Positions 51,785-59,986 of a stretch of DNA of 64,000 nt are shown here, piece by piece. The notes under the pieces were generated by a model. That model searched no databases. It was given only the letters and a program-made list of their open reading frames with translations, and had not been told where the DNA came from. Every line of letters starts with the position of its first letter. The first letter of the stretch is position 1. The stretch is from an uncultured Roseobacter sp. (GTDB lineage: Bacteria > Pseudomonadota > Alphaproteobacteria > Rhodobacterales > Rhodobacteraceae), in assembly GCF_947499265.1 (NCBI RefSeq), contig NZ_CANMNK010000006.1, forward strand, positions 62,001-126,000, written 5' to 3'. The position numbers and the translations under genes are program-made.

Positions 51785-53110
51785 TTATCGCTCGCCAAAT
51801 GCGCGTTCAAGCGAGCGATAAATTGGCTTACCCAGATACGCCAGCATGCTGCGTTCATCTGTGACAATCTCAGCACTACCGGTCATCCCCACGCGCAGCG
51901 GTTTTTCAAATGCACCGGCTCCAATGGTCAAACTGTCCAGCTCCACCACACCTCTAAAATAGACCTGACCATCCTTGGGATCCACGACTACAGTTGGTGA
52001 CAGGCTTGCAATTGTGCCCATGACCTCGCCGTAGCGACGTGCGTCAAAAGTTGTCAGCTTCAAAGACACCGTATCCCCCCGCTGAATGTGCCCGATGTCT
52101 GCCTCCTCGATGCGGATCTCCGCGACCAACTGATCGTTTGTATTGACCAACTCGAAAAGGGTCGCGCCAGCCTCGACAATTTCACCGATGCGGGGAAAAT
52201 CCACTGACTGAATGAGGCCTGCACTTGGCGCCCGCACCAAGAGTTCCTGTTGTTGATCTTCAAGCGATGCAAGTTGGGTGGCCAATGCCTCTTTCTCTTG
52301 CAGCAATGCGAAGAGCTCCGTCAGGGTTTGTTCACGCAGCGCCAGATCGCTTTCGATCGGCTGGTCACGCACTTCTGCGTAGTTTGCGCTTGTTGTGGCC
52401 AGTTCGATACTGGCGTCAATCAACCTGCCGCGCAATTCGTCCAGCGACTGTTGCTCGGCGTCAAGTCTGATGCGGGTAATGCTGCCGGATTCAAACAGTT
52501 TTGACAGACGGGCAACCGCGGCCTCTTTTTCCACGACACGGCTTCTCATAAGTTCTTGTGCGGCTTTCAGGCCTTCGATGATCGTCTTCAGGCTCTTTGC
52601 TCGATTGCGCGAAATCTCTTTTTGGAGCTCATGCAGGTAGAGCCGCGATCGTGCATAGTCTTCACCATCTGTGAGCAGCACATCTAATTCTGCGGGGTTT
52701 GACGTGGGTTTGTTGAGTTGATCCAGAATGAAGGACAAGGTTTCCGTTCTGGCACTGACGGCATCGTGCTGTTGTTGAACACTGCGAATGTTTCGCTCAA
52801 GGCTCGGTGATGTCAGAGTGGCCAGTACCTGACCTTCGCTGACCTGTTGCCCCTCTTTCACCAGCACTGAGTTTACGACACCGCTATTGATGCTTTCCAC
52901 TTGGTACGCGCGCCCGAGCGTGGTGATTTCACCGGTGGCGCGCGCGAGTTCCGGGACTTTGGTTTGGGTGGCAAGCGTGACGGCCGAAGCAAGAAAAGCC
53001 GCAAGCGTGAATACGATAACGGCAGAGATATTTGGCTCACGGCTTTTCTCTCGCGCGCTTTTTCTGTCAAAAATGCCAATCTGGTCCGTATGTGACTTAC
53101 GAAATGCCAT
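51785..53110 (-). CDS. HlyD-family type I secretion adaptor
   Basis: 441 residues from the ATG at 53110, one base after the preceding ABC gene's stop (AAGGAA upstream). A single membrane segment near residues 30-52 (AVIVFTLAAFLASAVTLA) leaves most of the protein in the periplasm. The barrel-sandwich half GVVNSVLVKEGQQVSEGQVLATL, a long coiled coil (about 100-270), the closing half and a beta-barrel domain (EIRIEEADIGHIQRGDTVSLK) follow in the family order. It connects the inner-membrane ABC pair to an outer-membrane channel, which is not encoded here. It closes the three-gene operon. Confidence 0.88.
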   Translation of the reverse strand: MAFRKSHTDQIGIFDRKSAREKSREPNISAVIVFTLAAFLASAVTLATQTKVPELARATGEITTLGRAYQVESINSGVVNSVLVKEGQQVSEGQVLATLTSPSLERNIRSVQQQHDAVSARTETLSFILDQLNKPTSNPAELDVLLTDGEDYARSRLYLHELQKEISRNRAKSLKTIIEGLKAAQELMRSRVVEKEAAVARLSKLFESGSITRIRLDAEQQSLDELRGRLIDASIELATTSANYAEVRDQPIESDLALREQTLTELFALLQEKEALATQLASLEDQQQELLVRAPSAGLIQSVDFPRIGEIVEAGATLFELVNTNDQLVAEIRIEEADIGHIQRGDTVSLKLTTFDARRYGEVMGTIASLSPTVVVDPKDGQVYFRGVVELDSLTIGAGAFEKPLRVGMTGSAEIVTDERSMLAYLGKPIYRSLERAFGER

Positions 53111-53111
53111 G

Positions 53112-55202
53112 TCAGGATTCCTTGTTTGCGGCAATCAGCGCGGTGATTTTACGCTGACCGTCTTTTCCGACGTCATTGGCAACGATCCGGCCCTCTGCCA
53201 TGAAAATGCAACGATCCGCCATCTGAATGTATTCAGGATCATCTGAGACAACGATGATCGTCCGCTGGCTCTTCAACCCATCCAGAAAACGTATCAGTGA
53301 GGCTCTGCGAAGGTAGTCAAGGCCGGCATTGGGTTCATTCAGCAAGTAAACCGCTGCAGGTCGGATGAAACTGCGCGCGAGAGCAAGGCCGCGCGATGTC
53401 GCGGAAGAAAGCGTCTTGCGGTAGTTCTCAGTCAATCGGGTATTCAGACCTTCCGGGAAGCCCTGGACCTCCTGTTCAAGCCCAAAGGCGGCAACAATCG
53501 CTTCGATGTCTTCAAGGGGGGCTGTCGGGGCTGCCAGGCGAAAGTTCTGCAGCAACGTGCCGTGAAACACCTCTGGTTTCTTTTGGGCGTAGCTGAAAGA
53601 TTGCCGCAAGTCGTCGACCGGGATTTGACGCACATCAATCCCATCAAGCTGCACTGAGCCCACGATCGGTTGATGCAGTCCCATCATCACTTCCAGCAGT
53701 GTTGTTTTGCCACTGCCGTTGCTTCCTGCGATCACCACGAACTCGCCTGCTGCGATGTCCAGCGACACCTGCGACAGCGCGGGCACCGTGGTTTCAGCAA
53801 ATCGATGTGTCACGCCTGCAAGCGTGATGCGCCCGTCAAACTCCTTCTGATGCGAAGAGGCTGCACCGCGCACCATTTCCTGCGGCATGGCAAGCACACG
53901 ATCAACCTGCTGTCGACTTTTGAAGAAGCCTAGAATCTGAGGCGCATTTGAGTACAAAGATTGAAGCGGGGTGAGAACCTTCCAGACAAGAGCCATGACC
54001 GCGATAAGCGCACCAAAAGACATGGTGCCTGCCATTGCCGCAAGTGTGCCCAGCACAATCGCACCGACACCCGCGATCATCATCAGGCTTTGGCCGAAGG
54101 ACTGACACACATGCTGAAAACGTCGCGCTTTGCGTGAGGCGCTCGCAGATTCCTGTGCGACGGCGGTATACCGTTTGCGCCAGAAATCCCCCAACCCTAA
54201 CCGATAAAGGTTGCGCTGTTGGCTGACGGTTTCAAACAGGTATTTTTGTTGTTTTGACTTGATCGTTGCCGCCTGCGTATTCAGGGATTGTTGCACAGGC
54301 AAGGTCACCCAGATTGCCAGCACGAAAACCGCAATCAGGCCCAGAACAAGAAATCCAACCTGAGGCGCTAGTGCGAAGATTATCCCCAGGAACACCAGGA
54401 TAAAGGGAAGATCCAACAGGGTTGTCAGAACCTGCCCGGCAAAGATATCGCGCATACCCTCAAATTGTTTGAACCGGGCAATCTGCTGTTCGACATCTGA
54501 TTTCTGAATTTGATCCGGTGGCAAACACAGCAGTTTTCTGAACAGGGCCAACCCCAGTCTGTGCTCGACGACGCGCCCCATATAGGCCACTGCCGAGGAT
54601 CGTGCGTAACGGAAGCCCGCATCTGCGGCCAGTACCAAGACAACGCCGAGTGCCAGAGAAATCACCAGACTGCTGGAGCCGGAGGGGATGACGCGATCAT
54701 AGATCATCATGATGAGAAGCGGCGTCGCCAATCCCATCAGGTTTGTCATGAACGATGCGCCGACCAGCCAGGGGATAAGACCCCGAAAACCGGCGGTGAT
54801 CATTCTGAAGTTTTCGAAGGTTTGGAGATTTTCAGATTGAGCGAAGCGCTCGATCTTTACGACAGTCCCGCGCACGTCAGACGGTGCACACCAGATCGGG
54901 TCATTTGCCTCGGTGCTGCTGAGCAGGAGCTTGCCGCCCTCTACGCCCAGAACCGCGATGACCTTTCCAGTTGCGTCTACGAATAGAGCAGGGCAGTCGT
55001 TTGCACGAATGTCGCTTTGTTTGGCCAGGGCGACAGATGTCGGGATGTCGAGATTGTCCAGGGTGGCAATCAGATCGTTCGCCGACATGCTGTCTGCTAG
55101 ATGTGGCGCGGCTTCGGTCAGGTTGCGGTGGCTGCTGTGCCACCCTGCCGCCATCATCAGTTTTTGCAGCAGGTTCAGACCGGGATGAATAATGGTGTCC
55201 AT
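53112..55202 (-). CDS. Type I secretion ABC protein B (C39-like domain, degenerate NBD)
   Basis: 696 residues: a C39-peptidase-like N-terminal domain without catalytic cysteine (about 1-130), six membrane segments (about 150-430), then the nucleotide-binding domain. Walker A is intact (GSNGSGKTT near 490) and Q-loop SYAQKK is present. The signature is LSSAT rather than LSGGQ (near 595), Walker B ends LLNEP with N for the usual D (near 619), and the switch histidine is D (VVSDDPEY near 655). It may bind but poorly hydrolyse ATP. It overlaps the upstream ABC gene by 1 bp (TAATG). Type I exporters of this group secrete large calcium-binding or adhesin proteins. Confidence 0.85.
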   Translation of the reverse strand: MDTIIHPGLNLLQKLMMAAGWHSSHRNLTEAAPHLADSMSANDLIATLDNLDIPTSVALAKQSDIRANDCPALFVDATGKVIAVLGVEGGKLLLSSTEANDPIWCAPSDVRGTVVKIERFAQSENLQTFENFRMITAGFRGLIPWLVGASFMTNLMGLATPLLIMMIYDRVIPSGSSSLVISLALGVVLVLAADAGFRYARSSAVAYMGRVVEHRLGLALFRKLLCLPPDQIQKSDVEQQIARFKQFEGMRDIFAGQVLTTLLDLPFILVFLGIIFALAPQVGFLVLGLIAVFVLAIWVTLPVQQSLNTQAATIKSKQQKYLFETVSQQRNLYRLGLGDFWRKRYTAVAQESASASRKARRFQHVCQSFGQSLMMIAGVGAIVLGTLAAMAGTMSFGALIAVMALVWKVLTPLQSLYSNAPQILGFFKSRQQVDRVLAMPQEMVRGAASSHQKEFDGRITLAGVTHRFAETTVPALSQVSLDIAAGEFVVIAGSNGSGKTTLLEVMMGLHQPIVGSVQLDGIDVRQIPVDDLRQSFSYAQKKPEVFHGTLLQNFRLAAPTAPLEDIEAIVAAFGLEQEVQGFPEGLNTRLTENYRKTLSSATSRGLALARSFIRPAAVYLLNEPNAGLDYLRRASLIRFLDGLKSQRTIIVVSDDPEYIQMADRCIFMAEGRIVANDVGKDGQRKITALIAANKES

Positions 55203-56914
55203 TATGCGCTCCTTTGCGAGGCGAGTGCTTGCGAGGCCGCGTCGTCATCCGCATCATCGTCCCAGAGCTGTAGGCTGTCCGTTGTGCTGTCCACCAACAT
55301 GATTTTCTGATCCGCGAGCGCGAGAAGCTGTTGGCGCGGCGTCGCCATCACGAGTGTTGTTTGACCCTTGATCGCTTCAATGCACCGCGCGAGCCGTGTC
55401 ACAGCGCGCTCATCCATCGCGGAGGTGGCGTCATTGAGCAAGAGGATGCGAGGCTCTAGCGCCAGCGCCCGAACAAGCGCGATGGTTTGCAGCAGGGCGA
55501 GACTGGACGTAATTGCGCCAACTTGCCCCATTGGCGTGCTGTACCCCATTGGCATGTGGTGCACTTTCTTCTCAAGGCCTAGCTCAGCGGAGTAAAAAAG
55601 GCTGCGTTCGATGGCCTCGCCTTCCCCAAAACAGGCAATGTTTTCGAGCAGCGTACCTGAGAAGACCGTGGGGTTCGGATCTGCATAAACGATACCACGA
55701 CGTCCACGCGTCGCGGCAAAATGTGTGATCGGTTTGCCATCAATCAGAATCTGGCCGGAAGCCGGTGCCTGCTCGCCCAGAACCAGGCGCATGAAAGTTG
55801 CCTGTCCAGATCCCGCTTCGCCAACCACACTCAGGGCCTTGCCTGCGCTCAGATCGAAGGTGACATCAGAGAAGACAAGCCCGTCCTGCGTGCTCCGTTC
55901 AGCGGAGACGTTTTCGAATGCAAGCTGGCCCTGCAGGTCCTCTGCAAACGCGGTTTCCGGATCGCGTTGCTGCAGCATCGATATTTCATCAACCTTGGAT
56001 TTTGCAGCGTCGATGCTTTCGGTTTGCGCCCAATGGCTCAGCATCTTTAGAAGGGGCTGAACCGTGCGTCCGTTCAAAAGCATGCAGGCTGCCAATTCGG
56101 CAATCCCGATCTTTTCAATGATGACCAGGTACCCTCCCAGAAGCCCCATCGCGGCAACGGCAGCCTGCGAGAACAGCGCACCAAACGACTGGGACATGCC
56201 GGAAACCTGGATCAGATTCTGGCTGATATCGACCGATTGCTTTTGCAGCACCTCGTACCGGCGCAGCAACTGCGGTTCCATCGTGTCGGCTTTGACTGTC
56301 ACAATCTGGGAAAGACATTCGATCAGGAAGGAATAGCGCCTGCCATCCAGCAGTTTCCGCTTCTCAAAGATGGGACCCTGCGCCCGCTGCAAAACGGACT
56401 TGAAGGCGTAGAGCATGACCAGACTGACCAGCGGTACAAGCACCAACCAGCCGCCAATCAACCCGATCATTATGATGAAGATCGCGGTAAACGGCATATC
56501 GACAGCAAACAGGCGCCCCTGTCCGCTGTAATAATCCCGCAACTGTGCGAATGCGTTCAGGCGTTCCAAATGAACCCCTGTCGAAGAGGCGTCATACGCG
56601 TTTGGATCGGCGTTCAACGATCGTTCCATGAAATGATCGCTCAGCTTCAGTTCGAACCGCTCGCCCTGATGCCCCATCAGAATGACGCGTGTCCATTTCA
56701 GGAAAAAGTCAAGAACGGCCACCACACAAAGGCCGATGAAAAGTAGCGTGAGTGTCGCATATGATTCAAATGGGATGACCCGGTCAAAAACCTGCAAAAC
56801 GACCAGTGGCAACGCCAGCGCGAGCATATTGATGGCAAGGGAAGATACCACGACAGATGCGCCCATCCGTGGTGGTGAGATCTTGTTTTGTTGCGCTAAC
56901 GTATCCGACCGCAC
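55202..56914 (-). CDS. Type I secretion ABC protein A (degenerate NBD)
   Basis: Start uncertain: a GTG at 56914 has GGGGAG 9 bases upstream, whereas the ATG at 56980 has none; 570 residues result. No C39 domain. Membrane segments cover about 20-290 (SLAINMLALALPLVVLQVFD onward). In the ATPase domain, Walker A is GEAGSGQAT, with Q for the essential lysine (near 363). The signature is AITSSL, Walker B is LLLNDAT (N and D for D and E, near 490), and the switch histidine is missing (VMATPRQ). This subunit is very unlikely to hydrolyse ATP. It is the first gene of the operon, divergent from the 963-residue PA14 protein. Confidence 0.82.
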   Translation of the reverse strand: MRSDTLAQQNKISPPRMGASVVVSSLAINMLALALPLVVLQVFDRVIPFESYATLTLLFIGLCVVAVLDFFLKWTRVILMGHQGERFELKLSDHFMERSLNADPNAYDASSTGVHLERLNAFAQLRDYYSGQGRLFAVDMPFTAIFIIMIGLIGGWLVLVPLVSLVMLYAFKSVLQRAQGPIFEKRKLLDGRRYSFLIECLSQIVTVKADTMEPQLLRRYEVLQKQSVDISQNLIQVSGMSQSFGALFSQAAVAAMGLLGGYLVIIEKIGIAELAACMLLNGRTVQPLLKMLSHWAQTESIDAAKSKVDEISMLQQRDPETAFAEDLQGQLAFENVSAERSTQDGLVFSDVTFDLSAGKALSVVGEAGSGQATFMRLVLGEQAPASGQILIDGKPITHFAATRGRRGIVYADPNPTVFSGTLLENIACFGEGEAIERSLFYSAELGLEKKVHHMPMGYSTPMGQVGAITSSLALLQTIALVRALALEPRILLLNDATSAMDERAVTRLARCIEAIKGQTTLVMATPRQQLLALADQKIMLVDSTTDSLQLWDDDADDDAASQALASQRSA

Positions 56915-57094
56915 AGTTGATTTCGCTCCCCAGATCACGTGGCTTTTTCTTATGGCGTGAGTCGTTAGTAAAACGTGCATCTGGCTGACTAGATGTGGAA
57001 AAATTTATAAAAATCAGATGTTTAAATTTTTGATTGTAAAGGTGCTCTTAACGGTATTCCCCACTGATGCGCGGCACGCACGCAGGAGATAAAG
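56915..57094. promoter_or_regulatory. AT-rich divergent promoter region, secretion operon and PA14 protein
   Basis: About 180 bp, locally very AT-rich (57000-57045), between the ABC operon and the 963-residue protein gene. It must contain promoters in both directions. I see no clear dyad. Confidence 0.45.
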
Positions 57095-59986
57095 ATGTCG
57101 GACAATGATCGCGTCGAGGAAGCCGAGGCGTTTCTTTCGCAAGCTGAAGAAACAAGCTCTGTTAAAGAGAAAGTGGCAGTGCAATCTCTGCGGGGCGACG
57201 TCACCCAAGAAGATGCATCGCGCAGCAACCTTCACTATGGTGAGCAAGAGGATGCGGGCGCAGATCGTACAAGAGACGATGCGACACCTTCTTCAAGTGA
57301 TGTTGATGCAGGGCTTTCGCAGGAGGCTCAGACCTCCGGCGGGCAACAATCATTGGATGCCGACAAAAGCGGTGTAGCAAACGCTGGTGCGCCTCAGCAG
57401 TCGGCTTTTGATCAATCGACGTCGCGAGGCGATGGTCAAAGCGACACAGTGCTTTCGCAGGAGCCCGCGCCAGAATCGCAGCCGTTTTCGACTCCGCGTA
57501 GTAACGCCGACCCCTTGTCGGTAGAAACGTTTTCCACAGAAAATGCCGCGCCCTCGGAGCGACCCCAGGAAGAGCAGTTATCTCAGCCCTTGCAAACAGG
57601 GGAAGAAACACAATTCGATCAGGAGGATAATCCGCAACAGGCAAAGGCTTCGCCGCCGCCAAATCACGCCCCCACAGAGCTTTCGTTGGATCCGGTTGAA
57701 CTGGCGGAGAATGATGCGGGCGCAATCGTTGGCCAACTCTCCGTCATTGATCCAAACGCAAGCGATGTGCATGAGTTTTCGGTTTCTGATGATCGCTTTG
57801 AAGTCGTCGAGGGTCAGATAAAGCTGAAACCGGGTGTTTTTCTCGACCATGAGCAGGAAGCATCGCTGCGCTTTGACGTTACGGCGACCGATGCAGATGG
57901 CGCCAGCTATACGGAATCCTTCGAGGTTTTTGTGGGTGATGTGAATGAAGCACCAACCAGCGTGTCGATCGATCAAAGTCATGTGGCGGTGGATCAAGCG
58001 GGCGCGGTTGTCGGACAGATCAACGTTGTCGATCCGGATCAGGAGGCGAACTACGAGTTCACGCTCTCTGACGACCGCTTTGAGGTGTCCGAAGGGCAAT
58101 TGAAACTGCGTGATGGGATTTCTTTGACAGAGGAGGATGCTGGTGATCTTGCCATTGAGGTGATGGTCACTGATCAGGGCGGGGAAACCGTGAGCCAGAC
58201 ATTCGATCTGGGCGTTGTGGAAACGGCAAGCGTCAACGTGAGTTCCGGGTTTCATGCCAGCTATTTTGACGTGGATCACAAGTTGTCGAAGCTGGATCAG
58301 ATCGACTGGACCGGCGAGGCGACGCATGAAGAGGTTGTGGGGGAGATCAACTACACCAACAGTCGGGAGTCCTTCTGGGAAGGCGGCTCCAAGGACACGT
58401 TCGGCGCAAGAATTACCGGCAACATCGAAGTGGAAGAGGGCGGTACGTTTGACTTTTTCATTGGCGGCGATGACGGGGTGATCCTGCTGGTGAATGGTGA
58501 AGAGGTGATCGACAACGACGGCCTGCACGGGTTCCGCACACGCAGCGGCGAGATCGAGCTGGAGCCGGGCACGCATAGCATCGAAGTGCGCTATTTCGAA
58601 AACTACGGTCACGCGGGCCTGAAGCTCGAATGGGAAGGTCCCGGCACCGACGGGCGGGAATTGGTGACAGCCCCGGAAGTCGATGACTTGCAGACCATCA
58701 ACGGGATGCCGATCGCGCTTGAGCTTGATGTTTCGGCGCCTGAAGCCACAGGTTCGGATCAAATCTCGCATCAGATAGAGGGGCTGCCGCCAGGCACCGT
58801 CGTTGAAGCGGGTGATATGAGTGTTGAAGCAGGCCCAGAGGGTACAGCCGACATATCAGGAATGGACCTTTCCTTGCTCACGGTGACGACACCCATCGAG
58901 TTTACCGGCCAGGTTTCGGCACAGATTGTGACAACCACAGATATTGGTGACGGCAATCAAGTATCCGTCACCGCGGATCTTGAACTCACGGTCAGCCAGG
59001 CGGATTTGACGCCCCCCAGCGTACAGATGGAGACCGGTTTCCGGGCCAGCTATTTTGACGTGGATCATAAGCTGTCGAAGCTGGATCAGATCGACTGGAC
59101 CGGCGAGGCGACGCATGAAGAGGTTGTGGGGGAGATCAACTACACCAACAGTCGGGAGTCCTTCTGGGAAGGCGGCTCCAAGGACACGTTCGGCGCAAGA
59201 ATTACCGGCAACATCGAAGTGGAAGAGGGCGGTACGTTTGACTTTTTCATTGGCGGCGATGACGGGGTGATCCTGCTGGTGAATGGTGAAGAGGTGATCG
59301 ACAACGACGGCCTGCACGGGTTCCGCACACGCAGCGGCGAGATCGAGCTGGAGCCGGGCACGCATAGCATCGAAGTGCGCTATTTCGAAAACTACGGTCA
59401 CGCGGGCCTGAAGCTCGAATGGGAAGGTCCCGGCACCGACGGGCGGGAATTGGTGACGGCAGTCGACGACCTTGCGGTTCCGCAAAACGGCATGATCGCC
59501 ATCGGTATTGGCGACGATAATCTGTCAGACGCGGCCACTGTGCAGATGTCCGGACTGCCTGCGGACACGATCTTGATGAGCGGCGATCAGGTTGCCGTGT
59601 CCGACGGGAGTGAGATTGACCTGACAGGGTGGGATTTATCCTTGCTGGAACTTGCACCACCGCCCGGATTTGAGGGGACGATTTCCGGGGAAATCACTAC
59701 CACGGATACGGCCTTCAACGGGCAGATGGTTTCGGGAAGTGATGTGTTTTCCATCGATGTCGGCGATGTCGACAACGGGCAAAATCAATCTTCGGACGGA
59801 GAGACTTCTGATGCCTGGGCTTCTTATGAGAGTGCTGACGCTTCATCCTCATGGGTGGATGCTGCCGACGATCAAGGGGCCGGTGATGAGCAAAATGAGG
59901 ATGTGATGGCAGAAGAGGTCGAGGAAAATCATGGGTCAGAACAGAACCATGAGATGAATGAGACCTATGAACGTCAAGATTGGTGA
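57095..59986 (+). CDS. Large cadherin-like/PA14 protein, probable type I secretion cargo
   Basis: 963 residues with AGGAG ideally placed; no signal peptide. Residues 1-180 are low-complexity (Q, E, S, D). Two cadherin-like domains follow (about 190-385, each with an ELAENDAGAIVGQLSVIDP-type opening). Two PA14 domains lie at about 387-525 and 650-787 (GGDDGVILLVNGEEVIDNDG). They are identical in protein sequence over about 137 residues. Two further beta-rich segments (GMPIALELDVSAPE; GMIAIGIGDDN) and an acidic C-terminal tail close it. There are no RTX repeats. Divergence from the type I operon and the missing signal peptide suggest secretion by that system. PA14 and cadherin domains bind carbohydrates or surfaces, so adhesion is a likely role. 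Confidence 0.83.
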   Translation: MSDNDRVEEAEAFLSQAEETSSVKEKVAVQSLRGDVTQEDASRSNLHYGEQEDAGADRTRDDATPSSSDVDAGLSQEAQTSGGQQSLDADKSGVANAGAPQQSAFDQSTSRGDGQSDTVLSQEPAPESQPFSTPRSNADPLSVETFSTENAAPSERPQEEQLSQPLQTGEETQFDQEDNPQQAKASPPPNHAPTELSLDPVELAENDAGAIVGQLSVIDPNASDVHEFSVSDDRFEVVEGQIKLKPGVFLDHEQEASLRFDVTATDADGASYTESFEVFVGDVNEAPTSVSIDQSHVAVDQAGAVVGQINVVDPDQEANYEFTLSDDRFEVSEGQLKLRDGISLTEEDAGDLAIEVMVTDQGGETVSQTFDLGVVETASVNVSSGFHASYFDVDHKLSKLDQIDWTGEATHEEVVGEINYTNSRESFWEGGSKDTFGARITGNIEVEEGGTFDFFIGGDDGVILLVNGEEVIDNDGLHGFRTRSGEIELEPGTHSIEVRYFENYGHAGLKLEWEGPGTDGRELVTAPEVDDLQTINGMPIALELDVSAPEATGSDQISHQIEGLPPGTVVEAGDMSVEAGPEGTADISGMDLSLLTVTTPIEFTGQVSAQIVTTTDIGDGNQVSVTADLELTVSQADLTPPSVQMETGFRASYFDVDHKLSKLDQIDWTGEATHEEVVGEINYTNSRESFWEGGSKDTFGARITGNIEVEEGGTFDFFIGGDDGVILLVNGEEVIDNDGLHGFRTRSGEIELEPGTHSIEVRYFENYGHAGLKLEWEGPGTDGRELVTAVDDLAVPQNGMIAIGIGDDNLSDAATVQMSGLPADTILMSGDQVAVSDGSEIDLTGWDLSLLELAPPPGFEGTISGEITTTDTAFNGQMVSGSDVFSIDVGDVDNGQNQSSDGETSDAWASYESADASSSWVDAADDQGAGDEQNEDVMAEEVEENHGSEQNHEMNETYERQDW
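58256..58668 (+). repeat. 413-bp direct repeat, copy 1 (PA14 domain)
   Basis: It matches 59045-59457 with only two differences near the 5' end, both synonymous (CAC/CAT and TTG/CTG). The spacing of 789 bp is a whole number of codons. Confidence 0.9.
59045..59457 (+). repeat. 413-bp direct repeat, copy 2 (PA14 domain)
   Basis: Second copy of the PA14 repeat. The flanking sequence between the copies is not duplicated, so the identity is confined to the PA14 domain, as expected from recent duplication or gene conversion. Confidence 0.9.

Follow-up and report, generated by a model that had tools for sequence, protein, structure and literature searches.

In the best-studied type I system, that of HlyB, a switch-histidine mutant which binds ATP but does not hydrolyse it exposes no substrate (PMC5018854). 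The same paper mentions a proton-motive-force step early in HlyB secretion, terms the driving force an open question, and presents it as disputed between the proton-motive force, folding outside the cell, and ATP acting either through its cycles or as a gate. Heterodimeric exporters of the ATP-binding cassette (ABC) type which have a degenerate site retain one consensus site, according to PMC7756269. Here we describe a four-gene module from a 64,000-nucleotide stretch of an uncultured Roseobacter sp. (contig NZ_CANMNK010000006.1, positions 62,001 to 126,000; the whole stretch is called the window below), in which two different ABC half-exporters, A and B, stand beside a HlyD-family adaptor and the gene of a large protein, S. 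The module belongs to a mainly Rhodobacterales branch of a family of paired type I exporters in which both predicted ATP sites are eroded. At the level of sequence, alignments, trees and substitution rates establish that the catalytic loss is branch-wide, that selection persists, that the four-gene module is conserved and that relatives with intact residues exist. This pump of marine Roseobacter-group bacteria either works without an ATP motor of its own or has become something else. Among the literature matches listed, in the parts accessible, neither an ATPase-less or doubly degenerate type I system nor this operon was recognised.

The module and its catalytic motifs

The half-exporters each have a transmembrane domain (TMD) and a nucleotide-binding domain (NBD). 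The features of the module are:

51785-59986, the module of four genes (A, B, HlyD adaptor, S)
55202..56914, minus strand, subunit A, a half-exporter of the ABC type with TMD and NBD, in which the catalytic motifs are gone
53112..55202, minus strand, subunit B, a half-exporter of the ABC type with TMD, NBD and an extra N-terminal region, which retains only Walker A and the Walker B Glu of the catalytic motifs
51785..53110, minus strand, HlyD-family adaptor (TIGR01843, 232.6 bits, cut-off 208.65)
57095..59986, plus strand, S, a 963-amino acid PA14/cadherin-type protein, divergent, the presumed dedicated substrate
59966..59983, plus strand, C-terminal tail of S, YERQDW

Both A and B match PF00664 and PF00005 and so have the fold of type I exporters. 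Their open reading frames (ORFs) are open at the positions given. The A frame extends up to an ATG at 56980 (55202-56980, 592 amino acids), and the GTG at 56914 is the likely start because GGGGAG lies upstream of it and the 570-amino acid ORFs of two orthologous loci (L051 and L052) begin at the same residue. The HlyD frame is open to a TTG at 53134, and the ATG at 53110 agrees with the start of the 441-amino acid orthologues. The extra N-terminal region of B lies where HlyB-type exporters have a C39-like domain, and it gave no Pfam C39 match. The first-pass annotation, made from the letters of this DNA, had described an intact exporter operon; the operon is indeed intact, and the unit is better taken as the four-gene module, with the divergent PA14/cadherin gene included.

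The motif positions, all on the minus strand, are as follows (A is numbered on the 592-amino acid ORF):

55796..55822, A, Walker A, GEAGSGQAT (Lys replaced by Gln)
55499..55513, A, signature position, ITSSL
55430..55444, A, Walker B, LLLND
55337..55339, A, switch-His column, Pro548
53700..53726, B, Walker A, GSNGSGKTT, kept
53580..53582, B, Q-loop column, Lys541 in place of Gln
53397..53411, B, signature position, LSSAT
53331..53345, B, Walker B, LLNEP (Asp replaced by Asn)
53241..53243, B, switch-His column, Asp654

These bear out what had been read in A (GEAGSGQAT, LLLND, ITSSL and no switch His, the column holding Pro) and in B (Walker A kept, LSSAT, LLNEP and Asp for the switch His). The Q-loop Gln is also missing in both subunits, B having YAQKKP against YxPQxx, with its Gln one residue earlier, and A having Pro in the column. 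A composite site needs six essential residues, namely the Walker A Lys, the Q-loop Gln, the Walker B Asp and Glu and the switch His of one subunit, and the second signature Gly of the opposite one. The site built on B possesses two of the six and that built on A none, in agreement with the earlier view that neither composite site is canonical; the functional ATPase site of type I systems is predicted to be lacking.

Motif loss in the orthologues

When A was used as query against 292 genomes of the order, matches above 250 bits occurred in at least 16 genomes, the window's own included, and 18 loci from 17 other genomes were compared (three of these at about 216 bits). The module is carried by at least 18 of the 292 genomes. 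A, B and HlyD follow in this order in all 18 loci and a homolog of S lies divergent beside A in 15, the other three having partial S frames which run into the contig end. A scan of named genomes gave 58 loci, of which 16 repeating the contigs of L051-L066 were dropped before counting. Among the genera represented are Roseobacter, Roseovarius, Ruegeria, Phaeobacter, Tritonibacter, Litoreibacter, Shimia, Leisingera, Pseudophaeobacter, Actibacterium and Meridianimarinicoccus. The most distant matches (L112, L114-L126) were ordinary ABCs and served for comparison. The alignment used for the counts contains 45 A, 42 B and 39 comparison sequences; L106 was left out of the A counts, and L106, L111 and L113 out of those for B.

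Of the 45 A sequences 9 keep the Walker A Lys, as do 20 of the 42 B sequences, 21 of which have Arg instead. Asn or Ser replaces the Walker B Asp in 35/45 A and 31/42 B (Asp is kept in 7/42 B), and the switch His is found in a single B. A subclade of Ruegeria and Phaeobacter lacks the Walker A Lys in either subunit, and in the core members the Walker B Asp, Q-loop, switch His and signature Gly are gone nearly throughout. All 39 comparison ABCs possess the Walker A Lys, the Walker B Asp and Glu, the signature Ser and the second signature Gly, and their switch-His column holds His in 35 and Gln in 4. Since these exporter ABCs are intact in the same alignment, the motif loss is not a matter of chance. 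The four with Gln (L121-L124, type I-like ABCs from Legionellaceae metagenome-assembled genomes (MAGs) and one gammaproteobacterial MAG) read VTQRPS, with their other motifs intact.

It had been allowed that close orthologues might have normal motifs and that this copy might simply be decaying. In the alignment of orthologues the close ones found are impaired as well, and intact sites occur in a separate group of operons. Decay of the window copy alone was rejected, since orthologues share the loss and selection persists.

Two loci (L209, L211) place the module on the complete Phaeobacter plasmids pP36_f and pGal_A255, where A and B are annotated merely as "ABC transporter transmembrane domain-containing protein". 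The strains with plasmid copies include P. gallaeciensis DSM 26640 and P. piscinae P36, which were isolated from marine aquaculture. Genome G059 has two A-B-HlyD-S modules (L063, L066), which differ in their stage of erosion.

Relatives with intact residues and the A-B tree

A class-wide search of 385 genomes with a profile of A gave matches among those listed from which 40 loci were examined. A, B and HlyD occur together in nearly all of the loci of sufficient length. An S-profile match occurs in 11 of the 40, mostly by way of cadherin repeats and, in L184, not adjoining A. In B the Walker A Lys and the Walker B Asp and Glu are present in 38 of 38 rows, mostly with the Gln and His as well; the motifs of A are more variable than those of B. 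The signature in this family (L169-L208) is often LPGG- or LPAG-like instead of LSGGQ, with Pro at the signature Ser.

A and B presumably pair with each other, as suggested by their adjacency and by the relatives in which both are fused in one gene, which are the best evidence for the pairing. Such fusions are found in a betaproteobacterial MAG (L111, 1419-5423), in an alphaproteobacterium (L197, 8037-11990) and on plasmid AZO_p3 of Azospirillum lipoferum 4B (L210, 11833-15969).

A paired tree was computed with FastTree from the 82 loci which have both A and B, with the motif columns excluded; it was not rooted by the program. Five loci were left out (L104, partial; L090, A only; L113 and L176, B cut; L208, A in two pieces), and the near-copies L051/L052, L067/L068, L097/L102, L170/L171 and L172/L174 were each counted separately. 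The tree splits into 40 and 42 rows with a support of 100, and FastTree warned of a long branch at L065. The intact side consists of 38 rows from genomes of Alphaproteobacteria together with L106, a Sphingomonas MAG, and L111, a betaproteobacterial MAG, with at least five of the six essentials at one site in 39 of its rows (L201 has four). The window's side is Rhodobacterales as far as named, with two alphaproteobacterial MAGs (L097, L102), and none of its 42 rows has all six at either site. Taking the better site of each row, 36 have three or fewer, five have four and one has five. This side runs from L066-L068 (4/6 at one site), L065 (5/6), L080/L101 (4/6) and L097/L102 (three and three) to a core clade of 34 rows, the window among them, which is supported at 100 and has no more than two of six at either site. 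The claim that both subunits are damaged is therefore confirmed for the window and refined for the branch, where the erosion is graded and 6 of 42 rows keep four or five essentials at one site.

TMD columns alone (50 loci, IQ-TREE quick) gave the same two sides, again with a support of 100, so that the erosion of the NBDs does not create the split. Although the tree has no inferred root, the intact state of the comparison ABCs indicates that the direction is loss and not gain.

Selection on A and B

The ratio of nonsynonymous to synonymous substitution rates (dN/dS, method NG86) was 0.057-0.119 for A and 0.054-0.100 for B in the four unsaturated pairs (L051-L052, L058-L062, L062-L108 and L057-L082; dS above about 1.5 was taken as saturated). 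The NBDs by themselves gave similar values (0.06-0.13) in the same pairs. To judge from these rates the operon is under purifying selection and not in decay, and the earlier suggestion that it is intact and kept under selection agrees with the open frames, the low dN/dS and the recurring layout. A pseudogene operon in slow decay would account for the progressive motif loss along the branch; we regard it as extremely improbable, since the frames are open in the loci read, dN/dS is low with the NBDs included, and the four-gene layout and the tail of S have been kept across many genera and are carried on Phaeobacter plasmids.

The conservation of ten catalytic columns was compared with that of the NBD columns in 5000 permutations, with the near-copies L052, L171 and L174 dropped. 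In the 38 rows of the intact side the catalytic columns stand at mean percentile 77 (A) and 85 (B), with permutation values of 0.0016 and 0 of 5000, and in the 33 core rows at mean percentile 43 (A) and 53 (B), with values of 0.78 and 0.40, a rank which NBD columns drawn at random would equal. Conservation of the TMD vs the NBD is 0.70 vs 0.58 (A) and 0.71 vs 0.67 (B) in the core, and 0.54 vs 0.53 (A) and 0.54 vs 0.59 (B) on the intact side. The column ranks, together with the better conservation of the TMD in the core, suggest that the constraint on the ATP sites has been lifted while that on the channel has been retained.

These results also bear on residual ATPase activity, by which one site would hydrolyse ATP slowly with non-standard residues and the pair would be a slow or gated exporter. 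The Walker A and Walker B Glu of the window's B would fit such a role, as would the five essentials of L065 and the four of L066-L068, L080 and L101. We consider it distinctly improbable, given the nearly complete loss of four kinds of residue in the core, the Arg for the Walker A Lys in 21/42 B and the want of this Lys in 36/45 A, and catalytic columns which are not specially conserved.

The partner protein and its C-terminal tail

The S protein of the window contains two PA14 domains and cadherin-like stretches; no signal peptide was seen in it by eye, and it has no GGxGxD repeat. On the window's side generally, 38 of 41 S homologs have no GGxGxD and three have one. Nine of the 41 are cut at a contig end, and the 32 with a complete C-terminus end in ER-x-[D/E]-W in 25 cases and in DRHDW or DRHDY in two. 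YERMDW is the ending of both complete copies on Phaeobacter plasmids. The pattern YERxDW-stop has exactly one occurrence in each of 12 genomes among the 13 searched, and controls with the reversed pattern gave none; in G150 and G248 it lies on another contig than the operon, the S gene beside the operon being cut, and in the window's genome the tail of S is its sole occurrence.

A similar ending occurs beside the intact-B operons, where four giants among eight complete neighbour proteins end in ERIEW, one protein in ERIEY and three in EKIEG or EKIEI. At least two GGxGxD repeats are present in seven of these eight (L182 has none). ERIEW-stop was found once in 7 of 10 intact-B genomes, four times inside the neighbour gene and three times on another contig, and its reversed control gave one match. 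The core clade thus seems to have retained the terminal ER-x-[D/E]-W after the loss of the repeats-in-toxin (RTX) block and of the ATPase, and we infer that this tail is the export signal of S. The module has a linked S, putatively secreted, with a conserved C-terminal tail but without RTX repeats.

The two PA14 copies in the window's S are identical throughout a stretch of 385 bases (window 58284-58668 and 59073-59457) and 97.7% identical over 426 bases; this near-identity is the result of a recent duplication, or of gene conversion, in the lineage of the window. In L051 the corresponding copies have 81% identity over 390 bases, and their longest identical run is of 30. The S homologs of L067 and L068 carry long DPDPVDPTPT repeats, the lengths of which differ between these two close genomes.

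The tail enters into the chief rival to export, a non-transport role in which the former exporter would hold the tail of S at the inner membrane as a scaffold, either as a static anchor of the envelope or as a sensor or receptor, with the NBDs as a docking platform. ABC-derived regulators with impaired sites are known, such as those of the SUR type, and a scaffold would agree with the loss of the energy-coupling residues and the conservation of the tail and of much of the NBD and TMD. It is the chief rival because the finding with the HlyB switch-histidine mutant makes export without an ATPase surprising. We nevertheless consider it unlikely: S has no Sec signal by eye and has domains of a surface type, so that any role outside the cell would still demand its translocation; HlyD remains a full adaptor; and in the disabled clade the TMD is better conserved than the NBD.

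Search for another motor

The neighbourhoods of 36 loci, some of them cut by contig ends, were surveyed for ORFs of at least 120 amino acids. No fixed companion gene was found, as the two commonest extra families each occur in 7 of the 36 neighbourhoods and at varying distances; one of them includes an ABC-type ORF (L074). A replacement ATPase gene within the operon was rejected on this ground. No TolC-family gene was seen fixed beside the operon in the 36 neighbourhoods, and OEP-family matches lie elsewhere in the genome in all three genomes searched.

A-B might instead be a substrate-specific channel which borrows its motor by forming a mixed complex with ABC dimers, themselves intact, from a second type I system in the same cell. 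A HlyB/HlyD complex with three ABC transporters has reportedly been described, and the HlyB of HlyB/D is the first PDB match of both our models. PrtD-type ABCs score over the cut-off in 17 of 18 carrier genomes and LssB-type ABCs in 9 of 18; other ABC-type ORFs, differing in size and place, lie in 8 of the 36 neighbourhoods, with none at L056, the locus of G096. This genome is near-complete (99%, 5 contigs). It gave no PrtD-type match at E 1e-90 and, with TIGR03375 at the same threshold, two matches, its own B and an MsbA-type exporter, hence no other LssB-type ABC, the search having covered these two types and not the HlyB type (TIGR01846). Its single HlyD-type adaptor is that of this operon, no other being found, and it possesses OEP/TolC-family proteins. 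Both of its subunits retain the Walker A Lys, but in neither are the signature, the Walker B Asp, the Q-loop or the switch His canonical. G096 argues against the view that hybrids with a second type I motor are the general rule, and with the absence of a fixed companion gene and the varying place and size of the neighbouring ABC-type ORFs it makes a borrowed motor rather improbable.

Proposed mechanism

We suggest that A and B form part of a conduit derived from a type I system, the NBDs of which would now be structural, and that it passes S without being powered by its own ATP hydrolysis; in our judgement this has close to an even chance of being right. In the scheme A and B would form a dimer, which with HlyD and a TolC-family protein would still make up a conduit; this would recognise S by its ER-x-[D/E]-W tail and, with no ATP hydrolysis by A-B, place it outside the cell or on the surface. 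The driving force would be the proton-motive force, the extracytoplasmic folding of the PA14/cadherin domains, or both, which is the weakest step. The fuller proposal, that a large surface protein is exported across both membranes without ATP hydrolysis of the exporter's own and without RTX repeats, driven by the proton-motive force or by folding, is more tentative, and we hold it to be somewhat doubtful. ATP may be a static ligand at the Walker A of B in the window's lineage; with both Walker A Lys missing from the Ruegeria/Phaeobacter subclade, this cannot hold in general.

A number of points weigh against the conduit. The loss of the ATPase is deduced from sequence alone and export is putative. 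A type I exporter without an ATPase contradicts the best-studied case, that of the HlyB switch-histidine mutant, and in PMC5018854 no Ca2+ pulling force was found for HlyA; as S is also without RTX repeats, the classic ratchet is gone too. The six rows with four or five essentials at one site may still bind or slowly hydrolyse ATP. The tail is absent from 5 of the 32 complete S (L065, L066, L067, L068 and L113), all from basal, less eroded loci, so that tail and erosion do not track neatly. With PrtD-type ABCs in 17/18 genomes and ABC-type neighbours at some loci, a borrowed motor would be possible elsewhere than in G096, whose branch keeps both Walker A Lys and so is not among the most eroded, and where the motor search was confined to two types. 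Finally, YN00 gave dN/dS values somewhat higher than NG86, the mid-group near-copies L067-L068 gave 0.20 (A) and 0.25 (B), and the window's own values of about 0.03-0.06 are indicative only, dS being saturated in all of its pairs. The ABC-type neighbours and the Walker A Lys of G096 tell slightly against the conduit and slightly in favour of the borrowed motor. If the conduit is real, NBDs can persist as structural parts of an exporter.

Comparison with known systems

Single chains of A and B were modelled with a mean pLDDT (predicted local distance difference test) of 76.1 and 79.7 and a pTM (predicted template modelling score) of 0.44 and 0.43, respectively. In fold searches of the PDB each model matches the HlyB/D complex first; the B model places its domains poorly (TM 0.41). 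Against TIGR03375, TIGR01846 and TIGR01842, with cut-offs of 693.1, 725.55 and 510.15, A scored 332.7, 225.4 and 217.9 bits and B 373.4, 232.7 and 225.9 bits, all below the cut-off. The pair is derived from type I systems, yet it is without the ATPase site of these systems as predicted, falls below three family cut-offs and lacks the one good site of a heterodimeric exporter.

The module resembles HlyB/HlyD/TolC in having an ABC exporter, a HlyD adaptor and a nearby substrate-like gene, and differs in its two unlike and eroded ABC subunits and a partner without RTX repeats. The LssB/LapB type (TIGR03375) is the best NCBIfam match of A and of B, both of which lie under its cut-off. With TmrAB, TM287/288, TAP and BmrCD, several of which are among the 50 best fold matches, it shares two unlike half-exporters and asymmetric NBDs. 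Those systems keep one consensus site whereas A-B of the window keeps neither; the statement in the first-pass annotation that heterodimeric exporters normally keep one good site agrees with PMC7756269. Also among the closest systems are the alphaproteobacterial operons with an intact B (such as L170, L177, L182 and the fused one of Azospirillum lipoferum 4B), which have the same gene order. A lineage under selection and apparently without ATP sites, standing beside intact relatives of the same gene order, offers a ready-made test of what drives type I export.

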